A stretch of DNA of 21,346 nucleotides from an uncultured Collinsella sp. (lineage in GTDB: Bacteria > Actinomycetota > Coriobacteriia > Coriobacteriales > Coriobacteriaceae): positions 1-21,346 of the forward strand of contig USNX01000003.1 of assembly GCA_900556205.1 (NCBI GenBank). Reading direction: 5' to 3'. Position 1 is the first letter of the stretch. The number at the start of each line of letters is the position of its first letter. The notes beneath the pieces are model-generated. The model saw nothing but the letters and a program-made list of their open reading frames with translations. It did no database searches and was not told the origin of the DNA. Positions 2,938 to 21,346 of this stretch are shown piece after piece. A program made the translations under genes and the position numbers.

Positions 2938-3960
2938 CTAGGCGCGGCGCCTCATGGCGTATGCCAGCAGCAGAACTGCCACGCCGGCTGCAAGTACGCC
3001 ACCAGCCATGGCGTACATCCCATCGCCGACCGAAGGCATGGTCGCCTTGCCAGCCTTCTTCTTGGACTTAGAAGACGTGGTCGTCGTGGTCGTGGTGGTC
3101 TGGCTCGAATCGGGCGTCGGCTTGGCGGCCTCGGCAATGGTAAAGGTCGTCTCGGCCGTACCCGTGGTCGAAACCACGCTCAGCTTATGCTCGCCCACGC
3201 CAAGCGTCTTCACGAAGCTCGCCTTGAGCGTCACGATTGTAGAGCCCGAGGTAAGAACGAAGTTATCAGCACCGACTTCCATGTCGTCGACCAGCACCGT
3301 CTTGAAGTACTTGATCGGCGCGTTCGAGCGGAAGCTCAGGTCCTTGGCGGTGTCGACCGTAATCGCCTGGCCTGCACCCTCAATGATCGTGGGGGCCAGG
3401 ATCGCGATGTCCTCGGTCTTGCCCTTCTCGCCGCAGACAGTGCACTCCTGGTGCCTCTCGCCCTTGGCCTCGGTGGTCGCCGGCTTGTCAACGACCCACT
3501 CAAAGGTGTGCTCAGCCTTGTCGAGGATCTCGCCGCAGCGGCAAATATGCCAGTGGTTCTTGGCGTCGTGCGCCCAGCCGGAGCCGTCGGGTTCGTGCTT
3601 GAGCACGCCCTCGACCGTCACGTTCACATCGCCCTCGACGTCCTTGAGCTCATAGGTGCCGTCGTCAGCGAGCTTAACGGCCTTACCGTTGACGCTGACA
3701 GCGTAGTCCTTGCCCGTAAAGTACGCGCCGTCGATGCTGATGGCGAGCTTTGCAGAGCCGTGCCAGTCGAGCTCGGTTGCCGTCGAGGTGAGCGTGAAGC
3801 CCACCTGGTTGCCCGGCAGCGTCACGACGAGCTTGCGGCCAGCCTTCACGGTAACCTCGGTGACGGCAGAGGCATCGTAGTTGGCCTTAGCTTGGTAGCG
3901 CACCTCGTACACGCCGGCGGCGAGGTCCTTGAGCTCAGTCACGTCCTTGCCCACGGCCTG
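2938..3960 (-). pseudogene. C-terminal remnant of the giant surface protein, with anchor
   Basis: These 340 codons continue in the same frame directly after the amber codon at 3961-3963. They begin QAVGKDVTELKDLAAGVYEV, matching QAVPEGVAELSGLAAGTYEV of the preceding tandem unit. They hold the last LDWHGSA module, the fourth HWxxCxCG module (HWHICRCG ... CTVCG), one more beta-sandwich-like region, a linker with eight Thr in a row and a Lys-rich stretch, and a tail. The tail is MPSVGDGMYAMAGGVLAAG plus a hydrophobic helix ending in RRR: the layout of a sortase signal, but with MPSVG in place of LPxTG. The first possible restart is a GTG at 3954 with no clear ribosome site, so separate translation is unlikely. 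No other stop or frameshift is present, which suggests a recent mutation, a sequencing error, or some readthrough. Confidence 0.75.
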
Positions 3961-6900
3961 CTACTCGGCGGCGCCCTGAGCGCGCCACTCCATGGTGGCG
4001 TCGACGCCCGTGATCTTGCCGTCCTTCTTGCCGCTCACGGTCTCGGCTTCGGCCTGGACCACCGGCGCGTCCTGCGCGGCGTTCTTGATGGAGAACTCGC
4101 AGGTCAAGCCATCGGCGGGCAGCGTGTAGTTGCCCGCGGCCTTGCCCGTCAGCTCGGCGAGGGTCGCCGTGTACGGAGCGCCCACCTCGGTCTGGGAACC
4201 ATCGACGAACGCACCGAGGTCATCCTTGCCGATGACGTTGCCAAGCTCTGCCACGGGGCAGTGCTCCTTGCCATCGTAGACGAATTCTGTGGTACCCCAC
4301 GTCACGGTGAGCAGACGCCGGTTGATGATGAACGTGCCGTCATTGAGCGTAATCGCGTAGTTGGGGTTCGCGCCCTCGAGCTGTGTCAGGCGCAGAGCAT
4401 AGCCACCCTCGTGCACATCGTCACAGTCTTCGCGCTCGATCTCGAGCTCAAGCGTATCGTCCCCGACGAGCTCGCCAGAGGTGACCGACCACTCAAAGAC
4501 GGGGTCTTTCTCGCCGTAAATCTTGGAGGCGTCCTGAGCGGTGACCGTGATCGCGCGAGGCGTGACCTCGAGCGTCACCTGGCCCTCGACCGTCGCACCG
4601 CCGATCATCACCCTATAGGCAACGTCCAGCTTGCTAACGTCCTTGATCTCGGGGGCAGTGGTAGACCAGGTCTTGCCGTCGTCGGTGCTGTACTCGGCCG
4701 TCGCGCCCTCGGGCAGCGCGGAAGCATTGACCGTGTGATACGCGCCGTCGTATTCGCCGGAGTAACCGGGGATAGCAGCAGCCGGAATCTCCTCGGAGGC
4801 AAGGGCGCACCCGCAGACGACGCACTGACGGTGACCGAAGCCCTTCTCGGTCGCCGTGGGAGGCGTGTCGACAACCCACGTAAAGGTGTGCGCGGCCTCG
4901 TCAATCTTGCCGCCGCAAGTACACTCGTGCCAGTGCGTATTGTCGTCGGAGATCCACTTATCGCTCACAGCCTCGTGCTTGCGCACGCCCTCGACCGTCA
5001 CGTTCACGTCGCCCTCGACGTCCTGGACGGTGAACTCGCCGCGGTCGTTGAGCGCCACAGCGCCTCCGTTGACCTTGACGACATAGGCGAGGGAGTCGGC
5101 AAAGTAGCCGTCCTCGATGCTGATAGTGAGGGTGGCAGAACCATGCCAGTCGAGCTCGGTCGCGTCAGCCGTGAGCTTGTAGCCGACCTGTTCGGCGGGC
5201 AGCGCCACAGCGAGCTTGCGGCCCGCGGCAACCGTAACCTTGGTCGCGGCGGAGGCTTCGTGGTTGTCATCGGCGCGGTAGCGCACTTCGTACGTGCCCG
5301 CGGCAAGGCCGCTGAGCTCGGCCACGCCTTCGGGCACAGCCTGATACTCGCCCGATTCCTTGGCGCGCCACTCCATGGTGGCGTCGACGTCCGTGATCTT
5401 GCCGTCTGCCTTGGCGCTGACGGTCTCGGCCACACCCTGGACCACCGGCGCGCCCTTGGGCGCCTTCTTGATAGAGAACTCGCAGGTCAGACCCGTTGCC
5501 GGCAGCTTGTAGTTGTCCTTGTCGGCGCCCGTCAGCTCGGTGATCTCCGCCGTGTAGGTGCCAGCCTTGACTGCGGCACCGTCGACGTACGCACCGAGCT
5601 TATCGCCACCGACGACGTTGCCGAGCTCCGCCTGGGGGCAGTGCTCCTCGCCGTCGTAGGTGAACTCGGTGGTGGCGTCCCACGTCACGGTGAGCTCGCG
5701 CCTGTTGATGGTGAACTTACCAGACTTGAACGTAATCTCGTAGTTGGGGTTGGCGCCCTCGGACTGCGATGCCGTCACGGCATAGCCGCCCTTGCTCACG
5801 GTCTCGCCGGCCTTGCGGGAGACGGTGATGCCCTCAAGGGACTCGCTCTCGACGAGCTCGCCCTTGGTGACCTTCCAGCCCAAAGCAGCGGGATCATCGT
5901 CGCCGTAGGTCTTAGAGGCATCGGATGCCGTCACGGTGACCTTGCGAGGCGTCACCACAAGCTCTGCGTCACCCTCGATAGCGGCACCGTCGACGGTCGC
6001 ACGGTACTTGAACGGCAGGGTGCCGACGTCCTTAATCTCGGGAGCGGAGATAGACCAATTGACGCCACCGTCGATGCTGTACTGGGCCGCCGTGCCCTCG
6101 GGCAGGGCCGAGACATCGGCAGTGTGGACCTTGCCGTCATACTCGCCGGAGTAGCCAGCAACAGAGGCTGCCGGGATTACAACCTTCTCGGAGGAGTTGT
6201 AGTCACAGACGGTGCAGTGCAAATGCTTGGATCCGGACTTCTCGACCGTAGGCTTCTCGTCGATTATCCACTCGAAGGAATGCTCGGCAACGTCAATCCG
6301 CTCACCGCACGTGCAAACATGCCAGTGAGAAGAATCGTCGCTCTTCCAACCGGTGCCATCGGGCTCGTGCTTGGCGATGCCCTCGACGGTAATCACGGTG
6401 TCTTTCTCAACCTTAGAGAGCTGGTAAACACCCTGCTCGCTAGGCTTGATGGTCTCACCGTTTGCCTTAACAGCAAGATCCTTGGTCGCGTAATAGCCAT
6501 CCGTAGCCGTAAGCTTAAGCGTCGCAGAACCATGCCAGTCGAGCTCAGTCGCGTCAGCCGTGATCGTGTAGCCCGCCTGCTCAGCCGGCAGCGTCACCTT
6601 GAGCTTGGGCCCAGCGGCGATCGTAACGGTAACGATCTCGGAGGCTTCATAATTCGTCGTCGCCCCGTAGCACAGGCGATAGGAACCGGGCGCAAGATTC
6701 TCAAGCTTGTCGCCATCGACCAGATCACTTGCCTTGATGAACATCATCTGCTTGCTAGGCTTGCCCAGCATCATCGATGTATCAACGCCCTCAATCGTGC
6801 CGTCGTGTTTACCACTCACGGTCTCCGCTGTCGCCTTTACATTGGGAGCGCTATCCCGTTTGGCCTTGGCGATAGCGTACTTGCATTCAATGCGCGAAGA

Positions 6901-9900
6901 GGGCTTCCGATAATTAGCAAGAACTGCGTTCTCACCAATAAGATTGCTTACATACGCCGTATACGTGCCGGCATTTACCTTTACAGCATCAGTGACATTG
7001 AGAGACACGTCGTCGCCGTTAACCAGATTGGTTATCTCTGCCGTGGGACCCTGTTCTTGGCCGTTATAAACGTATTGACCAACATTCCACGTCACATCGA
7101 TAGTGCGACGCGTAATAGTGAACTCGCCCGCCTCAAACGTAATGTCGTAGTTAGCGTTGGCGCCCTTTTCCTGAGAAGCCGTCACCTTATACGTCTTATA
7201 ACCAGTCAGGACTTTCTCCCCCTCATCACGCTTGTACGTGATACCAGAAAGCGTATCGCCCTCCATAAGGGAGCCGGCCGTCACTTTATAGGTAAAGTCG
7301 GGATCCGGATCACCATACGTTTTAGAAGCAGTAGCAGGCGCCACCGTGATCGGGTACGGCGTCACCTCGAGCGTCACCTGTCCCTCGATGTCGGAAGCAC
7401 CGGGGGTGATCACCTTATAGTCGACAGTGGTCTTGCCGACGTTTTTGATTGTTGGAGTATCCGTTTTCCACGAGGCGCCACCGTCGATGCTGAACTGAGC
7501 CGTCGCGCCATCCTTAAGGTCGACGCTCACGGCATGCTCTTTGCCGTCATACACGCCGACATAACCGCCGATGCACGCCGGAGGAATCTCCTCCTTGCGC
7601 AGGACATAGCCGCACGTGGAACATTGATACTGCTTTAGACCAGGCTTCTCGCTGGTGGGAGCCGTGACTTCCTCCCAGCAGAATTCATGCTTGCCTTCGT
7701 TAATTTTCTCTTTGCAACGGCATACCTGCCAGTGGGTGCCATCTGAGCCCTCGGTCATAGACCACTTGCCATCCTTCGACGCGCAAGGACCCTCCGCGAT
7801 TGTGAAGGCGTTAGCCTTCGAAGCATAGTGGTTGTTGTCCTCCTTAAAGCGCACCTCGTACATGTCGGCGGACAAATCGTCGATTGAGGTTTTACCGGCA
7901 GGGACGGATTTCCACCCTTTGGCCCCGAATTTTCTCCACTCATAGGTCTCATTCAGGTTGGAAAGCGACCCGTCCTTGAGGAAATGCGCGCTTGGGTTCT
8001 TGACCTTGACACCCGTGCCAGCGCTAGCGATATAACGCCACGGAACAGGCTGGCTGGCAGGCGTGATCTCAATCTTAACCGATCCTCTCTTTGTCACATA
8101 GTCTTTCGCGGTGATGCGGTAATTGACCGTTACGGAACAGACCTCGTCCCCGTCATCACGCTGAACATCCGTATAACTCGGAGCCGCCGTTGTCCATTCG
8201 TCGCTCCCATCAACGTTGTACTCGATCGTCATGTCGGCAGGAGCTTTTTCCACCGAGATGTTGACGCCATGCGGCTGCCCGTCATAGACGCCCTCGAATC
8301 CCTTAGCCGTCACGTTTTCGAACTGCGTGCCCGTGATGGTCCAGCGTGCGAATGTCGAGCCTGTGTAGTTGCCCATGCCCTTGATATAGACCAAGTAGTA
8401 CGGGTAATAGGAATTGGAGCTGGGAGGATCGACCGCACTCACCGTGCTATACGTCGGGTCATTATCAATCTCGTAGTCACCATCTTTGACGAAATACGAC
8501 CAGCTTTGAGCGTCGTAGTTGTAGACCTTAACGGAGAAACTCGGCGTAATCGTCTTACCCGTCCACGGGTACGCACGAACTGTCTCACCATTGATCTTGG
8601 TGTCTTCTCCGCCATTATTGAATTCAAACGTGATCCCGCTGACATCACGCAAATCAAGCGGCTTAATCTGGAACTCGCGAGTAAGCGTTAGGGCGTCATC
8701 CTGGCCATCGACCCTAACTTTGGACTCGATACGATAAATTCCCGCATCGGTGGGAACCTTTTCCAGTGCCTCGCCCTTGCTGTCGCCCCACTTCGTAAGC
8801 TTATAATACCTGGATTCGAAGATATGAACGCTTCCTGTCGAGACGATATCGTCTCGAGCATAGCCGCTCTTATTCGACATCGTCAGTGTTGGAGCTACCT
8901 CACTGCCACTGTACGGAATGCCGAGCTTTCCTTCGCTCACCGTCGCCCCATCGATGCCCAGCTCGACGGCATAACCATTTTTGTAGTTGCAATCGCTCGG
9001 ACGCATCTTGCCGGAGCAGGTGACCTTCAGCTGACATGAGCTGTTGGCGGCCTTTTCCACCGACCACACATGCTCGTGCGGCAGGCGCATGGCGTACACA
9101 CATCCGTCGTCTGTCTTTCCGATGCCGACGCTCGGATCGTCCGTAGTAACACGAGAGCGCAGGTCGGCCTCTTCGATGCCGCAGGTGCCGAGTGGCCACT
9201 GCGTGCCCGTATAAGAGCCCAACTGATCGTCCTTAAGCGACAGCTGGACCTTACCTGTGAAGGATTCTGCAATGTTCAATTTGCCGAGGTAGTAAACCCC
9301 CGGGGTATCGAGCGCGAGACCTCGAGCACCCTTATCGACGTTAGTAGTAATGGTCGTGTTGCCAGCAAGCGTCACCGTTCCGCGAGCATACACAGTGTTT
9401 CGACGTGTATTCGCATCAGCATAGTAGTACGTGCCCTCGGCATAAGTATCAGAGATCTTGGTGTTGTTGAGCGTGCAAGCCGAGCCTTTAGCAACCGCGA
9501 TTGCACTCGTCATGACCATATCTTGCGTATAGTTCGCCGCCGGAACCCGCGAGTCCATTGACTGAACGAGGCAATTGTTGAGCGTGACATCCGAATTGTT
9601 GACGACAATATTGCCCGCATGTGTATGCTCGTTTGTATCCTCAACCCCAAGGCTCTTGCACCAAATCGATTCCTGCCTGTTGTTGTTAAACGTGCAGTTA
9701 TTGAGCACGACATTGGGACGGAACCCACGGCCCACAACGCTCAATGCGCCAGCGCAGTTATCACAGTTGCCCTCGAAAGTGCAATTGTTAAAGGTCGCGT
9801 CTAGACTCTTCCCGCTGTTCTGCGAACCGCGGATGGTGACGGGCGCAGGAGAGGCGGTGTATAGGTAAGTGCTGTTCCCGTAGTTATGGTCATGTCCATA

Positions 9901-10560
9901 ACTCGCCGTTCCCGTTCTGCAATCCCAACCAATTACAGAGACGTCCTCAAATACGGCCGATTCGCCCCCGTCCATCGTGCCGTATAGCGCAATAGCGCGT
10001 TTGGACCTTTTTCCTGTAATGGTTCCCAGCTCGATGCCGCTCATCTTGAAGTTTAAGCTCCCGCCGGCACACCGCTTGTCGATAACAGAATCTGCGCCAT
10101 ACGTTTTATCCGGATTTGCATCGTCAGACAAGAAACTATGGCCATTGCAGTCAAACTGAGTTTGAAAGGAACCGTTGGTGCCGATGAATTCGATGTAGCC
10201 GCCCTTGAGGACGAAGAGCTCGCCGCTAGTAGAGTCTCTCTTGTCGACTATCGTGCCGCCATATTTGGGTTTTTTGGAAAAATAAACACGCGTCGGGTCG
10301 TCTTTGGTGCCGCCCTCGACCTCATAGTAGCCAAGAGTAATCTCACCGCCGATGACGTAGTCTTTTCCCGCTTCGAGCTTCACCGAGTAGGGGTATTGGA
10401 GGCCCGTACGACTTCTCTGAGCCAGAATCACGTCCTGCGGAATATCCGCCGTAGTCGCTGCCTCGGCCGCCGCCGGCGACGCCACGAGTGCGCATGCCAC
10501 GGTGGCGATACCCAGCAGGCGCGTCAGAGCGGCGCGCATCCCCATCTTCTTCTCCCTCAT
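3961..10560 (-). CDS. Giant secreted modular surface protein, ended by an amber codon
   Basis: The product is 2199 residues; 2540 codon positions if the TAG at 3961 is read through. The ATG at 10560 follows AGGGGAG by 5 nt and begins a clear signal peptide (about 1-35, cleavage near SPAAAEAA). Residues of about 40-490 look like a right-handed beta-helix with many repeated NNCTF/NNSDVTLNNC rungs, as in adhesins and carbohydrate-active proteins. About 495-930 holds beta-sandwich-like modules. From about 940 on come three tandem units of 460-469 residues. Each has HWxxCxCxxxI...H.F.W...CxxCG, then GYxGxYDGxxH, an MBG YGX-type domain (TYGDPDP near 1081, TYGDDDP near 1550, IYGEKDP near 2015), an RR.xxVTW...YDG(E/K)EH segment, and WRA and LDWHGSA segments. 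These domain types are common in extracellular proteins of gut Gram-positives. A role in adhesion or glycan binding is inference. A divergent two-component system lies upstream. Confidence 0.85.
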   Translation of the reverse strand: MREKKMGMRAALTRLLGIATVACALVASPAAAEAATTADIPQDVILAQRSRTGLQYPYSVKLEAGKDYVIGGEITLGYYEVEGGTKDDPTRVYFSKKPKYGGTIVDKRDSTSGELFVLKGGYIEFIGTNGSFQTQFDCNGHSFLSDDANPDKTYGADSVIDKRCAGGSLNFKMSGIELGTITGKRSKRAIALYGTMDGGESAVFEDVSVIGWDCRTGTASYGHDHNYGNSTYLYTASPAPVTIRGSQNSGKSLDATFNNCTFEGNCDNCAGALSVVGRGFRPNVVLNNCTFNNNRQESIWCKSLGVEDTNEHTHAGNIVVNNSDVTLNNCLVQSMDSRVPAANYTQDMVMTSAIAVAKGSACTLNNTKISDTYAEGTYYYADANTRRNTVYARGTVTLAGNTTITTNVDKGARGLALDTPGVYYLGKLNIAESFTGKVQLSLKDDQLGSYTGTQWPLGTCGIEEADLRSRVTTDDPSVGIGKTDDGCVYAMRLPHEHVWSVEKAANSSCQLKVTCSGKMRPSDCNYKNGYAVELGIDGATVSEGKLGIPYSGSEVAPTLTMSNKSGYARDDIVSTGSVHIFESRYYKLTKWGDSKGEALEKVPTDAGIYRIESKVRVDGQDDALTLTREFQIKPLDLRDVSGITFEFNNGGEDTKINGETVRAYPWTGKTITPSFSVKVYNYDAQSWSYFVKDGDYEIDNDPTYSTVSAVDPPSSNSYYPYYLVYIKGMGNYTGSTFARWTITGTQFENVTAKGFEGVYDGQPHGVNISVEKAPADMTIEYNVDGSDEWTTAAPSYTDVQRDDGDEVCSVTVNYRITAKDYVTKRGSVKIEITPASQPVPWRYIASAGTGVKVKNPSAHFLKDGSLSNLNETYEWRKFGAKGWKSVPAGKTSIDDLSADMYEVRFKEDNNHYASKANAFTIAEGPCASKDGKWSMTEGSDGTHWQVCRCKEKINEGKHEFCWEEVTAPTSEKPGLKQYQCSTCGYVLRKEEIPPACIGGYVGVYDGKEHAVSVDLKDGATAQFSIDGGASWKTDTPTIKNVGKTTVDYKVITPGASDIEGQVTLEVTPYPITVAPATASKTYGDPDPDFTYKVTAGSLMEGDTLSGITYKRDEGEKVLTGYKTYKVTASQEKGANANYDITFEAGEFTITRRTIDVTWNVGQYVYNGQEQGPTAEITNLVNGDDVSLNVTDAVKVNAGTYTAYVSNLIGENAVLANYRKPSSRIECKYAIAKAKRDSAPNVKATAETVSGKHDGTIEGVDTSMMLGKPSKQMMFIKASDLVDGDKLENLAPGSYRLCYGATTNYEASEIVTVTIAAGPKLKVTLPAEQAGYTITADATELDWHGSATLKLTATDGYYATKDLAVKANGETIKPSEQGVYQLSKVEKDTVITVEGIAKHEPDGTGWKSDDSSHWHVCTCGERIDVAEHSFEWIIDEKPTVEKSGSKHLHCTVCDYNSSEKVVIPAASVAGYSGEYDGKVHTADVSALPEGTAAQYSIDGGVNWSISAPEIKDVGTLPFKYRATVDGAAIEGDAELVVTPRKVTVTASDASKTYGDDDPAALGWKVTKGELVESESLEGITVSRKAGETVSKGGYAVTASQSEGANPNYEITFKSGKFTINRRELTVTWDATTEFTYDGEEHCPQAELGNVVGGDKLGAYVDGAAVKAGTYTAEITELTGADKDNYKLPATGLTCEFSIKKAPKGAPVVQGVAETVSAKADGKITDVDATMEWRAKESGEYQAVPEGVAELSGLAAGTYEVRYRADDNHEASAATKVTVAAGRKLAVALPAEQVGYKLTADATELDWHGSATLTISIEDGYFADSLAYVVKVNGGAVALNDRGEFTVQDVEGDVNVTVEGVRKHEAVSDKWISDDNTHWHECTCGGKIDEAAHTFTWVVDTPPTATEKGFGHRQCVVCGCALASEEIPAAAIPGYSGEYDGAYHTVNASALPEGATAEYSTDDGKTWSTTAPEIKDVSKLDVAYRVMIGGATVEGQVTLEVTPRAITVTAQDASKIYGEKDPVFEWSVTSGELVGDDTLELEIEREDCDDVHEGGYALRLTQLEGANPNYAITLNDGTFIINRRLLTVTWGTTEFVYDGKEHCPVAELGNVIGKDDLGAFVDGSQTEVGAPYTATLAELTGKAAGNYTLPADGLTCEFSIKNAAQDAPVVQAEAETVSGKKDGKITGVDATMEWRAQGAAE

Positions 10561-10610
10561 CGTAGCTCCCCTTATCCCTATGCTCTCGCGATGCCCGACA
10601 TCGCTTGGCG

Positions 10611-10644
10611 CTGGCGGCTGGCATAATCCCCGGCCAACCGCCAG
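10611..10644. promoter_or_regulatory. Inverted repeat between the surface gene and the regulators
   Basis: CTGGCGGCTGGC (10611-10622) and GCCAACCGCCAG (10633-10644) pair at 11 of 12 positions around a 10-nt loop. It lies 51 bp upstream of the surface-protein start in the 242-bp divergent gap. It could be a regulator site or a stem in the leader RNA. LytTR proteins usually bind direct repeats, so I do not assign it to the neighbouring regulator. Confidence 0.45.
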
Positions 10645-10650
10645 CATCTG

Positions 10651-13507: not shown

Positions 13508-13620
13508 TTGCTTCACCGAGAATTGCCTAGACTGCGCATGCAGCCGTAGGTCTTACGCCCTCTCCACAAGCGTTTGCGGCATCCGCCGCGGTTCCCGCAT
13601 GCCCTGCGGTACCTTCCAGG
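13475..13620 (-). ncRNA. Probable omega (guide) RNA of TnpB
   Basis: In IS200/IS605 elements the 3' end of tnpB and the right end are transcribed as a guide RNA whose last part comes from the flanking DNA. The tnpB C-terminal tail here (ACGEGVRP) is of the kind often seen where coding sequence and RNA scaffold overlap. The 5' boundary is a guess. The guide would begin at 13474 and read ATAATGGTGGGCACGC. This is inferred from the family, with no direct signal apart from position and the end hairpin. Confidence 0.4.
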
Positions 13621-14717
13621 ATTCTCCTTCCCTCGCGGGCGATGTTGACGGCGGCATTTAGGTCGCGGTCGTGACGCATGCCGCACGCGGGACAGTCCCA
13701 TACCCGTTCGGCCAGCGTCAGTCCCCTGTAGACGTAACCGCATGCGGAACACGTCTTGCTGGACGGATAGAACCTGCCCACCCTTACGAAGCCGCGCCCC
13801 GACCATGCGCATTTGTACTCGAGCTGGCGCGCCAGCTCCGACATGGCGGCATCGCCCACGGCCTTGGCGAGGCGGCGGTTCCTCTGCATGCCCCTGACGT
13901 TCAGGTCCTCGACCGCGATGTTTTGGCTTTCTCTCACCGCATGCGTCGTGAACTTGTGCAGGGCGTCCTTCCGCCGGTTGGCCACCTTCTCGTGCGCCCG
14001 CGCGACCCTGACACGCTGCCTGGCGCGATTTGCGGAGCCCTTCCGCTTGCGCGAGAGCCGTCGCTGCTCCCGTGCCAGCTTCCTCTCGCTCCTCTGCAGG
14101 TTTCTGGGGTTGGGCAGGCGCTCCCCCGTGGAGCAGGTGGCTATGTCGTGTATCCCCGCATCGACCCCCAGGAATCCGACGGTCGGGGCCGGTGCATCCG
14201 TGGCGGGGACGTCCACGCAGCATATCGCCACGTAGTACTTGCCGCTCGGCACCTGCTTGACCGTCGCGGACAGGACGCGCCCCTCCACGGGACGGCTCAC
14301 CCGTGCCCTGACGGTCCCCAGCTTGGGCAGCCTCACGTGCCTGGCGTCGATTATCACGACGCCGTTCGTGCGGTAGCTCTTCCTCCCCGCGCGTTTGGAC
14401 TTGAACTTCGGAAAGCCCACCTTGCCTGGTGCGCGGAAGAAGTTCCTATATGCCTTGTCCAGGTCGCGCAGGGACTGCTGCAGCGCCATGGAGTCCACCT
14501 CGGAGAGCCACGGCGCGTCCGTTTTCTTCCAGGCGGGGATCTGGGTGATGTAGGAGTTGATGTGCTTCGATTTGCCCGTCCGCGCGTACTCGTCCCGCCT
14601 CATCGCCAGCACCCTGTTGTAGACCCAGCGACAGCAGCCGAAGGTCTTCTGCAGGAGGGCCTCCTGATCGGCGCTCGGGTATATGCGGTACTCGAAGCTC
14701 TTGTCCATGGCCCTCAT
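13527..14717 (-). CDS. tnpB: TnpB, RNA-guided RuvC-like nuclease of IS605 family
   Basis: The 396-residue protein is complete. It has an N-terminal helix-turn-helix/wedge region (FEYRIYPSADQEALLQKTFGCCRWVYN), then a split RuvC domain with all three acidic residues: Asp186 in GVDAGIHD, Glu270 in VEDLNVRGM and Asp352 in HDRDLNAAVNI. A zinc finger sits between the last two (CSACG at 323-327, CPACG at 342-346). In characterised relatives TnpB uses an RNA from the element end to cut the vacated donor site, which helps the element persist. The ATG overlaps the tnpA stop (ATGA), so translation is probably coupled. No damage is visible, so the nuclease is predicted to be active. Confidence 0.95.
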   Translation of the reverse strand: MRAMDKSFEYRIYPSADQEALLQKTFGCCRWVYNRVLAMRRDEYARTGKSKHINSYITQIPAWKKTDAPWLSEVDSMALQQSLRDLDKAYRNFFRAPGKVGFPKFKSKRAGRKSYRTNGVVIIDARHVRLPKLGTVRARVSRPVEGRVLSATVKQVPSGKYYVAICCVDVPATDAPAPTVGFLGVDAGIHDIATCSTGERLPNPRNLQRSERKLAREQRRLSRKRKGSANRARQRVRVARAHEKVANRRKDALHKFTTHAVRESQNIAVEDLNVRGMQRNRRLAKAVGDAAMSELARQLEYKCAWSGRGFVRVGRFYPSSKTCSACGYVYRGLTLAERVWDCPACGMRHDRDLNAAVNIAREGRRILEGTAGHAGTAADAANACGEGVRPTAACAV

Positions 14718-15109
14718 GCGTTCTTCTGGTCCTCGATATATTGCCTGACGGTCTCGGGCGTCGCCCCGCCGACGGTCGAGACGAAGTAGCTGTTCGTCCA
14801 GAGCGTCGGCAGCTTGCGCTTCAGCTGCGGGAACTCGGTGCGCAAGTCATGGCTGGTCCTGCCTTTGATGCGCTTTACGGCCCGGTGAATGCCGAACTGG
14901 GGGTCGACCGAGATGAGCATGTGCACGCGGTCGGGCATGACCTCGATTTCCCTTATCTCGAAATCGAGCTCTTCCGCAACCTCGTGCGCGATCTCCTTGA
15001 AGCGGGAGTCGATGCCGTCCACGAGCACCTTTCTGCGGTATTTCGGGCAGAAGACCACATGGTAGTCGCAGCTCCAGACTATGTTGTCGTTGCTTCTGTA
15101 TCTATCCAT
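14714..15109 (-). CDS. tnpA: TnpA, Y1 transposase with altered HUH motif
   Basis: The 131-residue protein matches the IS200/IS605 Y1 transposases: NDNIVWSCDYHVVFCPKYRRKVL at the start (about residues 8-30), then DPQFGIHRAVKRIKGRTS, and the C-terminal helix with the catalytic Tyr125 (TVRQYIEDQ). The metal-binding HUH motif, normally DHVHML, reads DRVHML here, with Arg61 in place of the first His. One base change (CAC to CGC) would explain this. Loss of that His should impair metal binding and strand cleavage, so the enzyme may be inactive. The ATG at 15109 has no ribosome site; a -10 box lies only 6 nt upstream, which suggests leaderless translation. Confidence 0.92.
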   Translation of the reverse strand: MDRYRSNDNIVWSCDYHVVFCPKYRRKVLVDGIDSRFKEIAHEVAEELDFEIREIEVMPDRVHMLISVDPQFGIHRAVKRIKGRTSHDLRTEFPQLKRKLPTLWTNSYFVSTVGGATPETVRQYIEDQKNA

Positions 15110-15115
15110 ACAAAC

Positions 15116-15144
15116 AGTATACCACTTGCAGCCGTATATGTATA
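15116..15144 (-). promoter_or_regulatory. Promoter of tnpA-tnpB
   Basis: On the minus strand TATACA (15139-15144) and TATACT (15116-15121) are 17 nt apart. The -10 box ends 6 nt before the tnpA ATG, so transcription should begin at or next to the start codon. Confidence 0.5.
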
Positions 15145-15159
15145 TCGGCTGACGCCGAT
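15144..15159. repeat. Left-end hairpin of the IS element
   Basis: ATCGGC and GCCGAT form a perfect 6-bp stem around 4 nt. The position just upstream of tnpA fits a TnpA-binding structure at the left end. A competing pairing with CAGCCG at 15129-15134 is possible. Confidence 0.45.
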
Positions 15160-15195
15160 GCGCCTTATATCCCCATATCTGAAGAAAGGGGTTTT

Positions 15196-15220
15196 GCGGC
15201 GCTTTTGATAAAAGAGCCGC
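15196..15220. repeat. Hairpin between the IS element and trxA
   Basis: GCGGC-G-CTTTT (15196-15206) pairs with AAAAG-A-GCCGC (15210-15220) around a 3-nt loop, with one mismatch. Neither strand has a T-tract after it. It may be an old terminator or part of the left flank of the IS insertion. Confidence 0.4.
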
Positions 15221-15310
15221 CCGCGAGTGGTTGCTTTGCGGGCCGCTGGGTATAAGCACGGTCGTACTGAGTTTTACGCGGCCGAGCCGCGTCGCATTAT
15301 GGAGGTCACC

Positions 15311-20743: not shown

Positions 20744-21294
20744 ATGTCCCATAGCGTCACCGATAGCACTGTCCTGCTGGGCCACGGCTCCGGCGGCCAG
20801 ATGATGAAGCGCATTATCGACGAGGTCTTTCTGGATGCCTTTGGGTCGCCCGAGCTGCTCGAAGGCAACGATGCCGGTGTCGCCGCCCTGCCCGCGAGCG
20901 GGCGCATCGCCATGTCGACCGACAGCTTTGTGGTGACGCCGCAGTTCTTCCCCGGCGGAAATATCGGCAGGCTCGCCGTGTGCGGAACCGTCAACGATGT
21001 TGCGACCTCGGGTGCCAACGTGCGCTTCCTTTCGTGCGGCTTTATCCTCGAAGAGGGCTATCCTATGGATAAGCTGCGCCAGATTGTGCAGACCATGGCC
21101 GAGACGGCGCGCGAGGCAGGCGTCAAAATCATCACCGGCGACACCAAGGTGGTCGAGCGCGGCGGAGCTGACGGCGTCTACATCAACACCGCCGGCGTGG
21201 GCGAGGTTCCCGCGGGCGTGACGCTCAGTGGCGCCAACTGCCGCCCTGACGATGTCATTCTGGTATCGGGTACGCTGGGCGACCACGGTATCGC
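20744..21294 (+). CDS. hypE: HypE, C-terminal half missing (contig end)
   Basis: HypE dehydrates the carbamoyl group on its C-terminal Cys to a cyanide precursor for the hydrogenase iron. The 183 true residues match the N-terminal PurM-like domain: LLGHGSGGQMMKRII, MSTDSFVVTPQFFPGGNIGRL, AVCGTVNDVATSGANVRFLS, IITGDTKVVERG and VSGTLGDHGIA. GGAG lies 8 nt before the ATG. From 21295 the frame runs into adapter sequence, so the apparent tail CLLYTLTLPTKRIV and the stop near 21340 are not real. Full HypE proteins have about 330-350 residues and end in PRxC. Confidence 0.97.
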
Positions 21295-21346
21295 CTGTCT
21301 CTTATACACACTGACGCTGCCGACGAAGAGGATAGTGTAGATCTCG
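21295..21346. other. Nextera/Tn5 sequencing adapter at the contig end
   Basis: CTGTCTCTTATACACA (21295-21310) is the Tn5 mosaic end, lacking the T that normally follows. CTGACGCTGCCGACGA (21311-21326) is the reverse complement of the Nextera read-1 adapter. AGAGGATA (21327-21334) fits an 8-base index, and GTGTAGATCTCG (21335-21346) is the start of the reverse complement of the P5 primer. The order matches the library design exactly, so this is not genomic. Confidence 0.97.

Follow-up and report, generated by a model that had tools for sequence, protein, structure and literature searches.

A leftover Nextera library adapter at a contig end cuts off hypE in an uncultured Collinsella assembly

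The window that we analyzed is the whole 21,346-nucleotide stretch of contig USNX01000003.1, from an uncultured Collinsella sp. At its end stand consecutive hydrogenase maturation genes; Pfam searches identified there a NikR-like regulator, hypF, hypC, hypD and hypE. In the ORF list, the hypE frame starts at 20744 on the + strand and encodes 198 amino acids, with a stop ending at 21340. An IS200/IS605-type element lies on the - strand at 13527-15259 and consists of a Y1 transposase gene (14714-15259) and, after it, a TnpB-like OrfB (13527-14717) whose TNB domain is Cas12f1-like. Also on the - strand, the gene at 3961-10647 encodes a 2228-residue protein in which a domain search found MBG_2 domains and a beta-helix match, and which is probably a repetitive surface protein. 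A 338-residue ORF at 2938-3954 adjoins this gene on the same strand.

We aligned the end of the window with the Nextera read-1-side adapter in the read-through orientation. The reference combined the adapter oligo printed in PMC3906532 with the reverse complements of index S503 and of the P5 primer, as named in the oligo list in PMC7589761. All 52 window bases from 21295 to 21346 matched, with one single-base gap. Four parts follow one another on the + strand: the Tn5 mosaic end at 21295-21312 (18 of 19 bases, with 21295 possibly genomic), the reverse complement of the read-1 part of the adapter at 21313-21326 (an exact match), the i5 index AGAGGATA at 21327-21334, and the first 12 bases of the P5 primer reverse complement at 21335-21346, where the contig ends. 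The complement of the transposase oligo stands directly after the insert, with 32 of its 33 bases in order around the gap. The index that comes right after it is the reverse complement of the kit index S503 (TATCCTCT), and the P5 complement behind the index matches in 12 of 12 bases. The absent base is T17 of the 33-base adapter, which lies within the 19-base mosaic end.

The two sides of the gap were also found as exact 16-base matches. The first 16 adapter bases (CTGTCTCTTATACACA) lie at 21295-21310 and the last 16 (CTGACGCTGCCGACGA) at 21311-21326; with up to three mismatches allowed, neither has a second match in the window, and the mean number of matches in shuffled sequence was 0.08 and 0.58, respectively. 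Under a simple four-letter model, the 44 fixed letters, ordered and spaced as they are here, have an expected number of occurrences of approximately 1e-22. In the rest of the window, searched on both strands with five oligos, the longest exact stretch was 14 bases of P5 at 3469, which we take to be chance, and no adapter was noticed on reading through the first 400 bases. Both the alignment and the two exact matches bear out the original prediction, which had read the Nextera layout in order over these last bases with one T absent inside the mosaic end. The sequence at 21295-21346 is confirmed as a leftover Illumina Nextera library adapter, an ordinary laboratory artefact and not biology.

The point at which genomic sequence gives way to the adapter was located by comparison with relatives. 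The genuine 5' part of hypE, defined by homology to relatives, occupies 20744-21294 on the + strand and comprises 183 whole codons and two bases. It was matched in 33 of the 39 related genomes searched and had no match in six; the nearest relative has 98% protein identity, and each of the 33 best matches belongs to an open frame of 339 amino acids or more. Twenty of the 33 matched genomes were aligned at the junction. In every one of these the BLAST alignment stops at window base 21294 or 21295, while the relative's own hypE frame runs on past the junction to give a protein of 342-345 residues. This comparison with intact relatives had been proposed as a check on the claim that hypE is interrupted right after its GDHGIA motif, and the claim held in all 20. 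The assignment of the last 52 bases to the adapter stood for 21296-21346. Base 21295 is ambiguous, and the last certain genomic base is 21294, because 21295 is a C that is both the first base of the adapter and the base found in 17 of the 20 aligned relatives.

What follows the junction in the predicted protein is translated adapter. The false tail at 21296-21340 (+ strand), recognized by comparing the ORF with the adapter reading frames, consists of 14 residues (CLLYTLTLPTKRIV) and a TAG stop. The residues are identical to a translation of the adapter, in which the absent T shifts the CLLYTS frame of the oligo to the LTLPT frame. The predicted HypE therefore owes its final 14 residues and its stop to the adapter, and the earlier claim that they are artefacts was correct. 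Against the NCBIfam hypE profile (TIGR02124), which has a cut-off of 251.6, the 183 genuine residues reach 231.2 bits, whereas a longer relative (P0002, 347 residues, covering profile positions 2-291 of 332) scores 380.7 bits. Of the two domains by which HypE is recognized, Pfam found the N-terminal AIRS domain (PF00586) alone in the 198-residue ORF; PF02769 is listed for many of the longer HypE relatives. The sub-threshold gene is hypE cut by the contig end and not a different protein, and the real C-terminal half of HypE is absent from the contig.

Two biological explanations were weighed against these observations, and both were rejected on the order of adapter, index and primer together with the 20 aligned relatives. 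The first is that a true Tn5/IS50-type insertion, or an engineered Tn5 transposon, lies in hypE and that just its end was assembled. The first 16 bases after the junction are indeed Tn5 mosaic-end sequence joined directly to hypE, but what comes straight after the mosaic end, up to the last base, is the read-1 oligo, then a kit index of 8 bases and then the complement of P5, as in a sequencing library. In addition, the ends of natural Tn5 are not identical to the engineered mosaic end. The adapter pattern was present in none of 98 related genomes, so the adapter is no natural part of the hypE region. We consider such an insertion very improbable. That hypE was truncated or frameshifted naturally and gained a novel tail, as the 198-residue open frame and its stop might suggest, is more improbable still, since the tail equals adapter translation with its two halves in two reading frames of one oligo switched by the absent T, and hypE continues in all 20 aligned relatives.

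We favor the explanation that a Nextera (Tn5 tagmentation) adapter, reached by read-through of a short insert, was kept as the end of the contig, and we put its probability at about 98%. The identity, order and orientation of the adapter, and the break relative to other genomes, are directly visible. PMC3906532 describes the sequence trimmed off read 2, when an insert is shorter than the read, as the complement of the read-1 transposase oligo followed by the index and primer complements. Because the orientation in the window matches this trimmed sequence, we infer that a transposome would have cleaved hypE at 21294/21295, attaching the read-1 adapter to the cut end, and that read 2 would then have run through the short insert into the reverse-complemented library end, in the order read-1 adapter, S503 and P5. 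If the adapter was left untrimmed, the assembler may have retained it as the contig end. The loss of T17 would be a single-base deletion that came either from the adapter oligo or from the read. The window differs from the read-through case of PMC3906532 in two ways: its copy is missing T17, and it stands in an assembly, whereas the known case stays in the reads.

Similar remnants occur at the ends of other public contigs. Exact scans for the adapter, in which the base at position 17 was allowed to be absent, gave at least 126 occurrences in genome contigs and at least 120 in viral contigs (L021-L260). One of these loci, L091, belongs to a contig that is likewise 21346 bases long, but the 8000 bases compared have no 31-letter word in common with the window, and we regard the equal length as coincidence. 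Among the occurrences listed, the intact adapter lay within 38 bases of the locus end in 120 of 126 from genome contigs and within 37 bases in 115 of 120 from viral contigs, the locus end being the contig end for most loci, with a few (e.g. L203 and L212) for which no listing shows this. As in the window, the adapter stands at the contig end after genomic DNA. The index of the window, AGAGGATA, ranks first in frequency in the genome set (19 of the 126 occurrences listed) and is found in 7 of the 120 listed from viral contigs. Unlike in the window, the gap position was filled in all 246 occurrences listed: by T in 125 and C in one of the 126 from genome contigs, and by T in all 120 from viral contigs. 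The form without T17 was thus represented in none of them (0/126 and 0/120), which counts against the read-through account. The exact T17-less form also gave no stretches in the viral contigs scanned and none in the 98 related genomes.

The missing T was put down to a probable assembly or read error in the original prediction; a deletion in the adapter oligo, followed by escape from trimming, fits its loss as well. In the latter case, the library would have been trimmed and the T17-less copy would have been retained because of its own deletion, a tentative idea that we rate at somewhat worse than even odds. Without T17, the 33-base adapter falls into two arms of 16 bases; at 0.602 for every match (the value given in PMC4103590), either arm reaches 9.63, slightly short of the simple-clip threshold of 10 in common use. 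According to PMC8477409, this threshold is used with the Nextera adapter file. In a simplified Trimmomatic-like scheme (ungapped, with 0.602 per match and a fixed mismatch penalty of 3.5, where the program's own penalty depends on base quality), loss of T17 is the one among the 33 possible single-base deletions that scores below 10. The T17-less copy is therefore the one single-deletion form that such a simple mode would miss. This argument is post hoc, at about 1 in 33, and the palindrome mode of the trimming program might still have removed such a copy.

If escape from trimming were the cause, the adapters that remain after trimming should show an enrichment of central deletions, a sign that can be measured. 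When viral contigs were scanned for adapters lacking one to three bases, positions 16-18, 10-12 and 25-27 gave 1, 1 and 0 stretches, respectively; the idea is unsupported by these scans because there was no excess of central deletions. When viral contigs were anchored on the P5 part, the adapter was intact in 115 of 123 occurrences; two had a single-base deletion at another position, three had one or three substitutions, and three were without an upstream mosaic end. The only three loci covered from dataset 3300009408 carry two deletions (L292 and L345) and three substitutions (L293), and the intact adapter is found in none of the three. These damaged adapters lie approximately 90-250 bases from the locus end rather than at it, and would fit survivors of a trimmed set. 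Under the same simplified scheme, L292 (deletion at position 16) would score 10.24 and L345 (deletion at position 10) 13.85, so a threshold of 10 fails to explain them.

The present case matters for quality control only. The last 52 bases should be masked, with 21295 ambiguous, and hypE should be marked as partial at the contig edge; the 198-residue protein should not be read as a truncated or variant HypE. Because T17 is absent, searching for the exact 33-base adapter would not find the copy in the window.

Adapter-encoded tails do enter protein collections. We searched with the 198-residue ORF, scoring 8000 candidates and listing the best 120, among which the named homologues were mostly Collinsella HypE, with one from Enorma. 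Adapter-encoded stretches were found in three of these best 120 of 8000 (P0003, P0008 and P0025), which are HypE fragments of other assemblies ending in adapter translations (VSYTHLTLPT... or CLLYTSPSPRD...). In P0003, the final 14 residues correspond exactly to a frame that runs through the intact adapter into index TATGCAGT, and the C-terminal end of P0008 equals a frame of the read-2-side adapter.

The 16-base mosaic-end pattern was detected in 3 of 43 genomes of the genus, at 42 places, 30 of which are given as loci. Two of these congeners, G023 and G051, resemble the window in that a mosaic end stands at a contig end after genomic DNA. They differ from it in that the 19-base mosaic end stands there alone, exactly at the contig end, in 11 of 11 places (L262, L263, L265, L266, L268, L270, L272, L274, L276, L278 and L280). 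In the third, G018, 19 of 31 places form 14 sites, of which 13 are internal to a contig by 1,500 bases or more. Five of the sites are intact 38-base pairs of mosaic ends arranged head to head (L261, L277, L282, L285 and L289) and nine are damaged. These pairs are probably what remains, in a public genome, of the junction adapters from a Nextera mate-pair library. An intact adapter was also found in the middle of a viral contig (3300000510_000121, L142, positions 2154-2186); it carries the index of the window, and N's follow 11 bases further on, suggesting that a scaffold was joined across an adapter end.
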